A stretch of 64,000 nucleotides of DNA from Polaromonas sp. GTDB lineage: Bacteria > Pseudomonadota > Gammaproteobacteria > Burkholderiales > Burkholderiaceae_C. Made by a program: the position numbers and the translations under genes. Position 1 is the first letter of the stretch. Each line of letters begins with the position of its first letter. The stretch spans positions 1 to 64,000 of the forward strand of contig JAQGNE010000080.1 of the NCBI GenBank assembly GCA_028291985.1, given 5' to 3'. This document shows, piece after piece, positions 13,095-17,674 of this stretch. Below the pieces are notes generated by a model that searched no databases, was not told where the DNA came from, and saw only the letters and a program-made list of their open reading frames with translations.

Positions 13095-13763
13095 TCAGAT
13101 CACGCCGAACCAGCAGGCCCGCTGAACCGCAGCGAGCTTGTTGTCTACCTTGAGTTTGGCCATGGCATTGGACAGGTGAAAGTTGGCCGTGCGCTCGCTG
13201 CACGACAGATGCACACCGGTTTCGCGCGCTGTCAGGCCTTGAAAAGCCAGGCTCAGGCATTCCAGTTCGCGCGGGCTCAAAGGACTGCGCGCTTCGGCCA
13301 GCGCTCGCTTCAAAAGCGGCCAGATATTGAGTGCCGACCACGCCAGCAAGGCTGCCTCGCTTCTGTCATGCCACTGGCGCGGGCTGAACAGATAGCATTC
13401 AAAAGCGCGCCCTACCGTCAGCGGAAACGCAATGCGCACCACGCTCTGGTAGCCATGCGCCAGCCACAGCCGGCGCCAGCGGCCCATGCTGTCGAAGGCC
13501 GACTTGGAAATGTCCTGCCAAGCCACCAGCGGCGCATCGGAGTCGCGCCACGGCGCACCGAAATCACGGCTTTCAGCCAGCGCCTCCGCGGCATCCAGCA
13601 GGCGCGGCGGGTGAATCGCCAGCACCAGTCGATCCTCCTGCCCGCCGAAAGGATCCGGTCCCAGCACCATCAGGGCCTCAACGGAGTACTCACGAAGCGC
13701 GCACAGCCAGTCGTCAAGCACGCCGTCAAGGCTCACACTGTCAAAATTGGCAGGTAGCAGCAT
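13095..13763 (-). CDS. LuxR-family transcriptional regulator (quorum-sensing type)
   Basis: A 222-aa regulator. The C-terminal 60 residues 'LSPRELECLSLAFQGLTARETGVHLSCSERTANFHLSNAMAKLKVDNKLAAVQRACWFGVI' segment is a LuxR helix-turn-helix, of the subclass found in acyl-homoserine-lactone receptors (SERT.NFHL.NAM.KL). The N-terminal 150 residues have the general size and pattern of an autoinducer-binding domain ('WLAHGYQSVVRIAFPL...GRAFECYLF'), but I cannot place all invariant ligand residues. No luxI synthase is present, so it is a LuxR solo here. It is divergent from the CqsS-like kinase gene. A lux-box-like palindrome overlaps its own 5' end and a better one precedes the synthase gene. The start lacks a strong ribosome-binding site and is uncertain. 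Confidence 0.85.
   Translation of the reverse strand: MLLPANFDSVSLDGVLDDWLCALREYSVEALMVLGPDPFGGQEDRLVLAIHPPRLLDAAEALAESRDFGAPWRDSDAPLVAWQDISKSAFDSMGRWRRLWLAHGYQSVVRIAFPLTVGRAFECYLFSPRQWHDRSEAALLAWSALNIWPLLKRALAEARSPLSPRELECLSLAFQGLTARETGVHLSCSERTANFHLSNAMAKLKVDNKLAAVQRACWFGVI
13738..13753. promoter_or_regulatory. Lux-box-like imperfect palindrome in the luxR/kinase divergent region
   Basis: 'CTGTCAAAATTGGCAG' fits the CT-N12-AG pattern of LuxR-type operators, and 12 of its 16 positions agree with its reverse complement. It lies in the first codons of the LuxR gene and 22 bp before the track start of the kinase. It shares 11 of 16 positions with the site before the synthase gene. It could serve autoregulation, but being within coding sequence it may be chance. 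Confidence 0.35.
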
Positions 13764-13775
13764 TCAGCACCGTCA

Positions 13776-15206
13776 GTGGGTCAATGTTTGGGGTCGAAGC
13801 ACGCAGTAGTATGGCTGCTTGACTTCAAACCGTTCAATTTGCTAGCCGATACCCTTCGCAGTATCAGCCGCCTGCAGGCCAGATTTCGGCTGAAGACGCC
13901 GTGGATGGACCGCACCCTGGACTGGCTCCGGCAGGAAGTCGTCGAGGCGCCGCTGACGCCGGTACTGCACCCATCGCCTCTGCGCATGAAGGGGCTGGGA
14001 CTTTTCACGCTGCTGGGGCATCCGCTTTTTTACTTCTTGTGGGCCGTCTGGCTTCCGCAACCGTATGAAAGCCTGTGGTTGCGCATCATTGCAGCCCTTC
14101 TGGGCTGCTTTTTGATCAGCGGGCGCATCAGCAACAAGCCCTCCAGTGATCTGGCCGCGTTCGTCTTTTCAGCCGTGTCGTGGTTCGAATTGCCGTTTGT
14201 TTTCAGCTGGTTTTACTGGTGCAACGGTGGCAACCCAGTGTGGCTGGCCAGCGTGTGCAGCATGATTTTTATCTATTATTTTGTCACCGACTGGCGCATC
14301 GCCAGTGTCGGGCTGGCTCTGGGAGGACTGCTGACCTGGGCGCTCTTTCGACTGGTCGGACCCGAGACTGCCGCCATGAGCGCTTCGCAGACGCCGGTCA
14401 ATGCAGTTGTGATCGCATTCAGCGTCAGCATCAGCACGCTGTTGGGTGTATCGGCCGCCAACCTGCGGCGCCAGCAGCTCAACAACACACTGGCAACCAT
14501 TGGCATCATGGCGCATGAATTGCGCACGCCCCTGTCGACTGCAGCCCTGCTGGGAGACGCCATACAGCTGGAGCTGGAGCGCCAGCCTGACAATCCGCGC
14601 GCCTCGCACCTCAACAGATTGGCAGCGCGCCTGCATGCGCTGGTGCGCAACATGAACCGCCAGATTGACACCCAGATTGCCAATGCCAAGCTGCTGGAGC
14701 TACCGCGCCAGAACGAAGTGGTGGCGGCCGGCTGGCTGGTCAGGGAAGCGGTTTCCAACTACCCATACCTGACCCAACGGCAGCGCGATTGCGTTACCGT
14801 GACGGTACGGCAAGACTTTGCTTTCCGGTCTTCGGCCACCCAGTTTTCGCAGGTGCTCGACAACCTGATCAAAAACGGGCTTTATTCGCTGATGGCGGCC
14901 GACTCTGCCTACCCCAGTGATGCATTGCACCTGGAAGTCGCCACCTCCGAGAGCCGCGGCCAGATCATCGTGAGGGATCGGGGCACCGGTATCGAGCCCA
15001 CGCTGCTTCCGCGGATCTTCAAACCTTTTTTTTCCAGCAACAAGGGCACTGGCCATGGCCTCGGCCTGGCGTTTTGCCAGCAGGTGGTCGAAGGCGCCGG
15101 CGGCCGCATCCAGGCCGCATCGGACCCCCACGGCGGTGCCATTTTCACTATCGAGCTGCCCCTAGCAACGCCGGGTTCGAACGGCCCGCCCGGCAACCTT
15201 CCCTAA
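13776..15206 (+). CDS. CqsS/LqsS-type quorum-sensing sensor histidine kinase
   Basis: A 476-aa membrane sensor kinase. Its transmembrane region 'LLGHPLFYFLWAVWLPQPYESLWLRIIAALLG' closely parallels the start of the Vibrio CqsS sensor domain (GxP.YYF.W..W.PQ.YE.L.LR), and about six helices span residues 70-225. The HisKA motif is 'GIMAHELRTPLSTAALL' (His about 245). The N-box is 'VLDNLIKNGLYSL', with 'GTGHGLGLAFCQQVV' near the end. Unlike CqsS it has no C-terminal receiver; a separate response-regulator gene follows 8 bp downstream. The expected ligand class is an alpha-hydroxyketone made by the adjacent synthase. The start is uncertain: GTG 13776 (track) leaves only 12 bp to luxR, while ATG 13905 gives 433 aa. 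PhcS-like kinases are the nearest alternative. Confidence 0.85.
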   Translation: MGQCLGSKHAVVWLLDFKPFNLLADTLRSISRLQARFRLKTPWMDRTLDWLRQEVVEAPLTPVLHPSPLRMKGLGLFTLLGHPLFYFLWAVWLPQPYESLWLRIIAALLGCFLISGRISNKPSSDLAAFVFSAVSWFELPFVFSWFYWCNGGNPVWLASVCSMIFIYYFVTDWRIASVGLALGGLLTWALFRLVGPETAAMSASQTPVNAVVIAFSVSISTLLGVSAANLRRQQLNNTLATIGIMAHELRTPLSTAALLGDAIQLELERQPDNPRASHLNRLAARLHALVRNMNRQIDTQIANAKLLELPRQNEVVAAGWLVREAVSNYPYLTQRQRDCVTVTVRQDFAFRSSATQFSQVLDNLIKNGLYSLMAADSAYPSDALHLEVATSESRGQIIVRDRGTGIEPTLLPRIFKPFFSSNKGTGHGLGLAFCQQVVEGAGGRIQAASDPHGGAIFTIELPLATPGSNGPPGNLP

Positions 15207-15214
15207 GCATATTT

Positions 15215-16195
15215 ATGTCTTTCGCACTTTATCGCCGCCCTGGTGCCGTTATCTTTCTAGACGACGACCCCGAGTACCTCGAAATGCTGGCCATGGTGAT
15301 GCCGCCCGAGTGGTACGCGCGCCTGTTTCTGCGGCCGGTGGCCTGTATCGAAACCCTGTTGATGGAGCGCGACGCCTGGGAAAGCGACATCTGGAGACAC
15401 CAGGAAATGGTGAACCGGTGGCGCGAAGGGGTGGCGCTGATCCCGCAAATACTGCAGTACTGGCGGGAAGACGCCACGACCCGGTTTGCCCTGACGCAAG
15501 TCTGCGTCGTTGACTATTCCATGCCGGCCATGAGCGGCCTGCGCGTACTCAGCGAGCTCACGCAGTGGGAAGGTTCACGCATTCTGCTGACGGGCCGCGC
15601 TGACGAACAGCTTGCCGTGTCGGCTTTCAACCGCGGCCTGATCGACCAGTTCATCGCCAAGCAGCTTCCGGATATCCGGCTGCGACTGACAGAGGCCATA
15701 CGGGCAAGGCTCAGTCAGCCCAACCCGCGGCACGAGCAGACCTGGCGCGCCACCTTGTCGCGCGAACAGCACGCGCTGCTGGGCGATGCGGGAATCGAGC
15801 GGGCACTCGACCAGCTTGCCATGACGCACGGCTGGGTCGAGCACATCGTGCTGGGCGCGCCTTTCGGCGTACTGGCCCTGGACCGCACGGGCCAGGTGTC
15901 CTGGCTGCAACTGGAGCCGCAGCACCGGCTGGCAGAGCTTGCCGAAATGGCGGAATCCCAGGGATGCGAGCGGGCCATCGTCAACAACGTTGCCAGTGGC
16001 GAACTGCTGATCGACTTGGAACTCCGGCTGGCACTCGGCGGCAGTGCCAAGCCCCAGACGCGGCCAGCCACTGCCGTGGCATCGCAGGATGCGCTGGTCT
16101 ACACCGCGCTGTTTCCTGTGGATCCCTCTCTTGCGCCGGGGCCGGCATCCAGCCATGGCAGCTTTGTGGCGGCACACAGCCACAGGTCGCTGTGA
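15215..16195 (+). CDS. Response regulator of the CqsS-like kinase (LqsR/JqsR-like)
   Basis: A 326-aa regulator starting at ATG 15215, 8 bp after the kinase stop, rather than at the track start 15074 which lies inside the kinase gene. The receiver has the acidic pocket 'IFLDDDPEYLEML', the phospho-acceptor Asp near residue 99 in 'VCVVDYSMPAMSGLRVL', Thr in 'RILLTG' and Lys in 'QFIAKQ'. About 85 residues separate the acidic pocket from the acceptor, roughly 40 more than normal, because of an insert ('CIETLLMERDAWESDIW...IPQILQYWRED'). The C-terminal 150 residues are not a DNA-binding domain I recognise; 'FGVLALDRTGQVSWL' hints at a PAS-like fold. Output may therefore be by protein interaction. 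Confidence 0.82.
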   Translation: MSFALYRRPGAVIFLDDDPEYLEMLAMVMPPEWYARLFLRPVACIETLLMERDAWESDIWRHQEMVNRWREGVALIPQILQYWREDATTRFALTQVCVVDYSMPAMSGLRVLSELTQWEGSRILLTGRADEQLAVSAFNRGLIDQFIAKQLPDIRLRLTEAIRARLSQPNPRHEQTWRATLSREQHALLGDAGIERALDQLAMTHGWVEHIVLGAPFGVLALDRTGQVSWLQLEPQHRLAELAEMAESQGCERAIVNNVASGELLIDLELRLALGGSAKPQTRPATAVASQDALVYTALFPVDPSLAPGPASSHGSFVAAHSHRSL

Positions 16196-16220: not shown

Positions 16221-17468
16221 TCAGCCCCGGGCGGCCCTTGCGCGTCGGGCAATCGGCCAGTCCCACGGCTTGAGTAAAGGCGCTATTTCCTGGGCGACCG
16301 ATTCGACATGACTCATCTCTGCATCGGTCAGCGAGCTGTTGAGGGTCAGTCGAACCATTGCGCGGTTGCGGCTGGTGGCAGGCGCACAAAAAATAGAGCC
16401 GATGACGTCGCGGGCTTCCAGCGTATCGCGCAGGACCATGGCGCTGGATTCCGAGCCGGCTTCCAGGGAGATGATCTGCTCTGTGCCCTGATGAATGGGA
16501 AAGCCAACATCTGACAGGCTGGCGCGCAGGCGCGCAGTGTTGGCATGCAGACGCCGCCGGGCGTCATCGCTGCGCTGCAACACCCCCACAGTTGCACCCA
16601 GCGCTGCGATTTCATGCGGCAGCAGCGAAGAGCTGAAGATATTGGGAAGACTTGCCGTCAGGATGTAATACCGCAGGCTGGCCGGCGCCGTGAAAAATCC
16701 CGCGCGTCCCGCCATCGCCTTGGCCAGGCTTGCGGAAATGAAATGGACGCGGTCAGTAAGTCCCAGCTCGGCGCAAAGGCCAGCGCCCTTGGGGCCATGG
16801 GTTCCCAATGAATGTGACTCGTCGACCACGATCATGCTGCCATGGCGCTCGGTGACCTCCAGTATCTCGTGCAGCCGGCACACGGCGCCGGTGGTGCTGT
16901 ACACCGAATCCACGACGACCACACCAGGGCCGTGTGTCGTCATCATGCGTTCCAGATGGGCCGGGTCGTTGTGCCGAAATGCATGGGCTGGAGCGCGCGC
17001 GGCATGCGCGCCTTCCCACAAGGATGCATGAGCGAGCGAATCAAGGTAGACCGGTGTCTGGGCATCGGCAATGACTTGCAGCAAACCCATGTTGGCAGCG
17101 TATCCGGACTGGCATAACAGTCCATCCTCCTTGCCCACCCAGTCCGCCAGGGACTTCTCAAGCCGGTGCGCCGGGTGGTCGCCCAGCAAAAACACGCCCG
17201 ATTGCACAACGCTTTCCTGGCCTTGCGTCAAGGCGGCAATCTGCGCGCGCACGATATCGGGATGGCCGGTGACACCCAGGTAATCGTTGCCATCAAGCCG
17301 CACGGCTCCCGGCCCCGGGGTCCGGCCATGGAGCACGAACTTGCCGCCCCATTCACTTTCCCAGCGGCTTGAAAAATCGCGTGCGATCCGGGCAGCCAGC
17401 GTTTTTCCTAAGGCAGGGTTGTTGAAAGGCCGTGCAGCGGGCGAAAGTTTGCGGTCAAGAACTTGCAT
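16221..17468 (-). CDS. CqsA-family alpha-hydroxyketone autoinducer synthase
   Basis: A 415-aa PLP-dependent alpha-oxoamine synthase fold. Several blocks match the CqsA branch rather than 8-amino-7-oxononanoate synthase or glycine C-acetyltransferase: 'DGNDYLGVTGHP', 'QSGYAANMGLLQ', 'VVDESHSLGTHGPKGAGL', and the PLP lysine in 'HFISASLAKAMAGRAGFF' (about Lys250, SLAK instead of TFSKA). CqsA-type enzymes condense an acyl-CoA with an amino donor to give CAI-1/LAI-1-like ketone signals. The gene converges on the kinase/regulator pair and has a GGAG ribosome-binding site. A near-consensus lux box lies about 64 bp upstream of its start codon. The exact signal cannot be predicted; the Janthinobacterium Jqs and Legionella Lqs systems are the closest precedents I know. 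Confidence 0.88.
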   Translation of the reverse strand: MQVLDRKLSPAARPFNNPALGKTLAARIARDFSSRWESEWGGKFVLHGRTPGPGAVRLDGNDYLGVTGHPDIVRAQIAALTQGQESVVQSGVFLLGDHPAHRLEKSLADWVGKEDGLLCQSGYAANMGLLQVIADAQTPVYLDSLAHASLWEGAHAARAPAHAFRHNDPAHLERMMTTHGPGVVVVDSVYSTTGAVCRLHEILEVTERHGSMIVVDESHSLGTHGPKGAGLCAELGLTDRVHFISASLAKAMAGRAGFFTAPASLRYYILTASLPNIFSSSLLPHEIAALGATVGVLQRSDDARRRLHANTARLRASLSDVGFPIHQGTEQIISLEAGSESSAMVLRDTLEARDVIGSIFCAPATSRNRAMVRLTLNSSLTDAEMSHVESVAQEIAPLLKPWDWPIARRARAARG

Positions 17469-17531
17469 GGAAACTCCAGAGATAAGGAACTTCCATTGAA
17501 GGCGCTTGGCCTGCCGGGCAGGTCCAGCCCC

Positions 17532-17547
17532 CTGTCAGATCTAACAG
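17532..17547. promoter_or_regulatory. Near-consensus lux box upstream of the autoinducer synthase
   Basis: 'CTGTCAGATCTAACAG' is an inverted repeat matching its reverse complement at 14 of 16 positions, and it fits CT-N12-AG with a central AGATCT as in known LuxR-family operators. It lies 64 to 79 bp before the synthase start codon, a spacing compatible with a LuxR activator site at the promoter. The LuxR solo encoded 3.8 kb away is the obvious candidate to bind it. Confidence 0.7.
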
Positions 17548-17552
17548 TAGAG

Positions 17553-17581
17553 CTACAACGGCGGCCGAATCGCCGTTGTAG
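17553..17581. repeat. Perfect 11-bp inverted repeat upstream of the lux box
   Basis: 'ctacaacggcg', a 7-nt spacer, then 'cgccgttgtag' form a perfect inverted repeat. It lies 5 bp beyond the lux box, on the side away from the synthase gene, and 94 bp after the rhodanese stop. No T-run follows on either strand, so it is not a typical intrinsic terminator. It may be an operator or an RNA hairpin at the end of the rhodanese transcript. Confidence 0.6.
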
Positions 17582-17674
17582 AACGACTACTAAATAGCTC
17601 GTTTACCTGGCAATTCGCTTAAAAGCCAACATGCCCGGACAGCGCAGCTGCCTGACCACTGCCGGTGCAGAATT

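Follow-up and report, generated by a model that had tools for sequence, protein, structure and literature searches.

An alpha-hydroxyketone (AHK) autoinducer synthase gene in Polaromonas sp. is preceded by a lux-type palindrome, box 1, which is very probably a LuxR-type control site for the synthase, as it is conserved in orthologous loci and vanishes when luxR does. The window, meaning the whole stretch of DNA that was analysed (64,000 nucleotides, positions 1 to 64,000 of contig JAQGNE010000080.1, assembly GCA_028291985.1), also carries genes for a LuxR-type regulator, a histidine kinase and a response regulator next to the synthase gene, and a second palindrome, box 2, inside luxR (Table 1). 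It is very probable, in sequence terms, that the signal synthase gene and the receptor genes are both under the control of a dedicated LuxR-type regulator.

Table 1. Features of the AHK synthase cluster in the window.
Feature	Position	Strand	Evidence
LuxR-type regulator, 222 aa, GerE helix-turn-helix at residues 161-215	13095..13763	-	in the cluster of 25/25 Polaromonas synthase genomes (disrupted in G012)
Box 2, CTGTCAAAATTGGCAG, in codons 4-9 of luxR, oriented towards the kinase operon	13738..13753	+	CTG-N10-CAG in 97/101 luxR genes, skewed codons
Histidine kinase of the AHK system (CqsS/LqsS/JqsS type)	13776..15206	+	HATPase_c
Response regulator (LqsR/JqsR type), no recognisable DNA-binding domain	15215..16195	+	Response_reg only
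AHK autoinducer synthase (CqsA/LqsA/JqsA type)	16221..17468	-	NF005526, 551.5 bits
Predicted RNA hairpin that takes up the 5' UTR and pairs across the Shine-Dalgarno region	17469..17494	-	pairing kept across loci
Conserved TTCAAT element	17495..17500	-	C of CAAT 39-42 bp from box 1 centre in 95/101 loci
Box 1, lux-type palindrome, candidate operator of the synthase promoter	17529..17550	-	98/101 luxR-bearing family loci with CTG-N10-CAG; column counts, 99 loci

The synthase exceeds the cut-off (428 bits) of the equivalog model NCBIfam NF005526, alpha-hydroxyketone-type autoinducer synthase, so that the name given to this gene in an earlier note made from the sequence alone is sound, and its product is predicted from the family model to be an alpha-hydroxyketone-type signal. 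Relatives mostly preserve the gene order coaX - luxR - (divergent) kinase - response regulator - (convergent) synthase - rhodanese; an exception is one subgroup of Polaromonas, with a more distant rhodanese gene and no coaX found. Synteny links the sensor kinase and response regulator to the synthase in the fetched Polaromonas neighbourhoods except that of G012, where both genes are gone and a disrupted luxR lies right beside the synthase, with box 1 kept (L052). Most relatives of the kinase align only from residue 40-58, which places its true start downstream, probably at an ATG near 13905. Relatives of the LuxR were found in 26 of the 101 genomes of the relatives sample, namely the 25 synthase-bearing Polaromonas and G016. 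A second, truncated luxR relative, 67% identical, lies at a contig edge of the genome under study (G000:C15:8-505, L123), and no box was found on its 3.8 kb contig.

Read directly from the window, box 1 is CTGTCAGATCTAACAG at positions 17532-17547, or CTGTTAGATCTGACAG in the reading direction of the gene. It equals its own reverse complement at 14 of 16 positions, fits CT-N12-AG and more exactly CTG-N10-CAG, and begins 64 bp upstream of the synthase start codon at 17468, with 63 bases between, all of which bears out what the earlier note had described. Palindromes of the CT-N12-AG form matching at no fewer than 14 of 16 positions number two in the window against 1.3 expected in first-order Markov sequences, which is chance level, and for this reason palindrome statistics were dropped as the sole yardstick. 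What lies beyond chance for box 1 is its position and its conservation, not its palindromy. Adjoining it, at 17554-17582, an 11 bp perfect inverted repeat was spotted by eye (CTACAACGGCG...CGCCGTTGTAG); this repeat is absent from the aligned relatives and is perhaps the end of the rhodanese transcript.

For the analysis of conservation we pooled 140 synthase loci (the window, neighbourhoods from the genus, the order and the family, and 80 named loci); after removal of near-identical loci, 112 distinct AHK synthase loci remained, mostly from Comamonadaceae. The named relatives with the locus are Polaromonas and other Comamonadaceae (Hydrogenophaga, Ramlibacter, Caenimonas, Variovorax and Tibeticola). 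Box 1 was scored as CTG..A....T..CAG within 160 bp of the synthase start. By this definition it is present in 98 of the 101 loci with luxR in the cluster, in none of the six whose cluster is without luxR, and in three of the four where the contig ends before luxR; the upstream sequence of one further locus (L133) is too short for scoring. Shuffled upstream regions yield box 1 at a rate of 0.28%. The Fisher p value for the association between luxR and box 1 is 5e-8, a figure that overstates the association because the loci are related. Across 99 loci the consensus is CCCCTGTCARNNYTGACAGGGG, at a median position of -81 from the start (about 80 bp), and both our own site and those of the 98 luxR-bearing loci take the form typical of a lux box, an inverted repeat of about 20 bp and of the CTG-N10-CAG type. 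Among the 101 genomes of the relatives sample (our own included), 25 encode a close synthase, all of them Polaromonas, and all 25 of these loci carry box 1 at the same place; three further synthase matches come from other families of the order. The earlier note had proposed a scan of related genomes as a check on the site, and both the genus and the family thus show the conservation it called for.

The three luxR-bearing loci without box 1 are of two kinds. Two of them (L137 and L146) have a degenerate site, CTGTCA..TTACCGG, and the third (L139) has no box 1 and a luxR that is only 50% identical. Among the loci without luxR, five are 46-60% identical, and the sixth belongs to Polaromonas OV174 (genome G496, locus L182), which is the best single piece of evidence for the tie between luxR and box 1. 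OV174 retains synthase, kinase and response regulator, lacks luxR genome-wide and has no box 1 upstream of its synthase gene, while the 5' UTR hairpin is, judged by eye, still present. In the synthase tree it groups with two strains that have both luxR and the box (SH-aLRT 95), nested among box-bearing Polaromonas. This co-loss within a well-sampled genus is one event only. Since the only Polaromonas seen to have lost luxR is also without the box, and since the two are conserved together across the family, the palindrome is very probably the switch of this luxR.

A pattern search recovered a second site of the same kind, at the 5' end of luxR. CTG-N10-CAG occupies codons 4-9 in 97 of the 101 luxR genes with a PxNFDS-like motif, a count that leaves out the luxR gene of L052, in which the motif is missing. 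Codon choice within the box is strongly skewed relative to gene-wide usage: the Pro codon is CCT in 99 of 101 genes (17% gene-wide), the Phe codon TTT in 99 of 101 (43%), the Asp codon GAC in all 101 (75%), and the Ser codon AGY in 99 of 99 (57%). This shows that box 2 is kept by selection at the DNA level. Plasmid relatives of luxR are without box 2; pPNAP01 of P. naphthalenivorans (L284) and a plasmid of Polaromonas sp. P1-6 (L285) carry luxR and a response regulator gene and no synthase, the latter also a kinase gene split in two, and these are possibly plasmid-borne listeners.

As far as can be read from sequence, the geometry around both boxes is as expected of a lux-type promoter: in either direction a CAAT element lies about 41-43 bp away from the centre of the box. 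In classical lux promoters the box is centred at -42.5 from the transcription start, and box-to-start distances of about 41-43 bp are those of lux-type activation sites. TTCAAT lies 37-40 bp from the centre of box 1 in 95 of 100 loci, and the conserved CA fits the -42.5 centring; C 17498 and A 17497 would then be -1 and +1, a start position derived from the sequence. Towards the kinase, CAAT is found 38-46 bp from box 2 in 69 of 97 loci versus 3.2% of shuffles, and in our own window it stands at 36 bp, off the usual 42-43. The -10 regions are poorly conserved across loci.

We consider it likely that the cluster LuxR is the regulator of both boxes, activating the synthase gene and the kinase/response-regulator operon. 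It would bind box 1, most likely as an activator, with transcription of the synthase gene predicted to start at about 17497, and would also bind box 2, activating the divergent operon and perhaps limiting luxR itself. Signal maker and receiver would in this way be controlled together by one transcription factor. LuxR may also supply the DNA-binding output that is missing from the response regulator, and it may sense an AHK, a partner protein, or nothing. A fuller version is more tentative, and we hold it somewhat less probable than its negation: LuxR would be the missing DNA-binding output of AHK signalling, descended from the AHL (acyl-homoserine lactone) receptor fold, and would answer the ketone or the response regulator, the two boxes would activate synthase and receptor, and the hairpin would act as a second gate.

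The direction of control could be the reverse, with LuxR as a repressor at both boxes that is released by its ligand, as in EsaR. The location of box 2 within luxR, downstream of luxR's own start codon, suits blocking, and the synthase gene of OV174, the sole strain to have lost luxR, still looks functional, which would be expected of a gene that can be switched on without luxR. However, both boxes lie at the lux-type activation distance from the conserved CAAT, in the direction of the controlled gene, and OV174 lost the box as well, which the loss of a repressor does not require; we therefore regard repression as unlikely, if still the most serious competitor. Far less probable is the use of the palindrome by some other DNA-binding protein, for example LexA or a regulator encoded outside the cluster. 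LexA (SOS) operators have the form CTGT-N8-ACAG, and 90 of 101 boxes fit it, but the other 11 break this pattern yet keep CTG-N10-CAG. The flanks of lexA itself carry another core (CTGTATGAAAATACAG in the genome under study, CTGTATAAAAATACAG in OV174), and OV174 retains LexA although its box is lost; LexA is ruled out as the binder of box 1 by these three observations. The JAI-1 motif TTGA-N6/7-TCAA, a palindrome upstream of jqsA and other AHK-controlled genes in Janthinobacterium and Duganella whose binding protein is unnamed in excerpts of PMC5080296, was likewise rejected as the identity of box 1, being found in only three of the 112 upstream regions. A function of the palindrome as an RNA or terminator hairpin is scarcely credible: the consensus of box 1 is indeed a long inverted repeat with GC-rich ends, but asymmetric variants such as CTGTCAGATATAGCAG are kept, which indicates that pairing is not the conserved property, and the constant spacing from CAAT is consistent with DNA binding, as is the presence of a copy within the codons of luxR.

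The earlier note had also proposed that LuxR normally answers AHLs, so that the box would wire two quorum-sensing families directly together. The ligands would come from neighbours, and ketone production would be under AHL control. The helix-turn-helix of the cluster LuxR is, by sequence, of the AHL-receptor kind: PF00196 (GerE), of the quorum-sensing kind, is found in 49 of 49 cluster LuxRs, and among PDB sequences RhlR and QscR match best. In contrast, the autoinducer-binding domain PF03472 has no match in any of the 49, even at E 1. An AlphaFold model built from the 49 sequences (mean pLDDT 89.2) has QscR, TraR, SdiA, LasR and RhlR as best whole-protein Foldseek matches, and VIA-align gives Z 12.0 for QscR (rmsd 6.8, 207 residues). 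The predicted fold of the N-domain is near that of the ligand domain of CepR2 (Z 11.2, with an rmsd of 3.4 over 145 residues), but GAF domains, at Z about 10, come close to this score. Among the families listed in the PDB comparison, the N-domain of the model thus resembles QscR, RhlR and CepR2, and its fold would leave ligand binding possible. Residues conserved at AHL contacts in receptors are W, Y, D, P, W and G. In hhalign, which aligns from residue 79 on, W82 and G104 are paired with a tryptophan and a glycine of a canonical LuxR, but these are the only alignable contacts.

Genome content speaks against AHL sensing. The genome under study has no PF03472 protein and no other AHL receptor, nor any match to the AHL synthase family PF00765 (LuxI), for which the same search gives 89 bits in the outgroup G067; absence of LuxI is by itself compatible with AHL sensing, since LuxR solos exist. 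Over the 59 genomes examined, PF03472 exceeds the cut-off in seven and PF00765 in two. An observation in favour of AHL sensing comes from the outgroup, which belongs to another family of the order: a LuxR with PF03472 (7.8e-8) is encoded after kinase and regulator genes (L279, 2654-7202), and its best PDB match is LasR; no box was found there. Together with the Polaromonas-type cluster, this means that AHK clusters have acquired LuxR-type genes in two arrangements or more. We consider AHL sensing by the cluster LuxR improbable, and neither the AHL response nor the direct wiring put forward in the earlier note is supported, with no recognisable AHL-binding domain and no AHL synthase found. What emerges is an AHK system that is complete in itself and has a LuxR-type regulator of its own.

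A hairpin lies between TTCAAT and the start codon of the synthase gene; its arms are wholly different among species, with pairing kept by compensating changes. It reaches at least five net pairs in 88 of 99 loci (shuffled mean 3.3), and 537 of 744 cells are paired compared with 440 +- 9 in 1000 shuffles (maximum 469), counts that are inflated by relatedness, as is the pairing of Shine-Dalgarno-like bases in 81 of 90. The predicted structure would bury the ribosome-binding site of the synthase and is a possible second layer of control, translational or thermal. A role as an RNA thermometer of the fourU type is a guess; a search of the synthase upstream region against Rfam gave no thermometer match and one match below the gathering score (E 2.6), taken as chance. 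At one locus of G016 (L124, G016:C194, 4015-4241 and 6697-7362), box 1 is kept together with the start and last residues of the synthase, but the core of that gene is gone. The luxR gene with its box 2 and the genes for kinase and regulator appear to be there; this is possibly a signal-mute receiver, or an assembly fault in the metagenome-assembled genome.

Of the Polaromonas genomes, 16 of the 25 with the cluster contain strict CCTGTYARNNYTRACAGG sites, as do 2 of the 21 others. Outside the cluster these sites form only two recurring groups, each limited to a few relatives. The first group lies near an ABC-transporter-like gene and the second between a small gene and a phosphatidylserine decarboxylase-like gene, as labelled from reading the sequences (L105, L109, L112, L270, L275 and L106, L111, L268, L271-L273). 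These boxes are a possible subclade regulon. As the genome under study has no convincing further box target, a genome-wide regulon is not claimed.

Homologs of lqsA and lqsS in Polaromonas are already in print (excerpts of PMC3376566). The cluster resembles the Lqs, Jqs and Cqs systems of Legionella, Janthinobacterium and Vibrio in having a CqsA/LqsA/JqsA-type synthase with a linked sensor kinase and response regulator, but it adds a dedicated luxR and two lux-type boxes, which are unmentioned in the excerpts of PMC3376566 and PMC3566124. It shares with the JAI-1 system a palindrome upstream of the AHK synthase gene, although of a different sequence. With LuxI/LuxR systems it shares the features of the lux box described in part of PMC4540015, where that of cepI in Burkholderia cepacia is TGTAAGAGTTACCAGTT: an inverted repeat of about 20 bp with CTG-N10-CAG before an autoinducer synthase gene, luxR nearby, and the logic of autoinduction. 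Unlike in those systems, the synthase is predicted to make an alpha-hydroxyketone-type signal rather than an AHL, the LuxR is without a recognisable AHL-binding Pfam domain, and kinase and response regulator belong to the cluster. As in the LuxR solos treated in sections of PMC10134790 and PMC13419125, the LuxR-type protein has no partner LuxI, but in this cluster an AHK synthase gene takes the partner's place. By its excerpted text, the survey in PMC10134790 took only proteins with PF03472, and the family of the cluster LuxR would therefore have been left out. Within the open PMC literature, which leaves most subscription journals outside and makes absence weak evidence, no paper was found that connects AHK synthases with a lux box or with a LuxR dedicated to them, and none of six exact box strings occurs there.

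Our results bring together an operator found across the family, a co-inherited LuxR, another box preceding the operon of the kinase, and OV174 as a strain with a natural loss, which makes the step from signal to DNA directly testable in AHK systems with an LqsR/JqsR-type regulator. If the proposed control is true, the module of LuxR and lux box, known from textbooks as the partner of AHLs, would serve a chemically unrelated signal in these bacteria, and there would be a family of LuxR proteins that is invisible to surveys keyed to PF03472.
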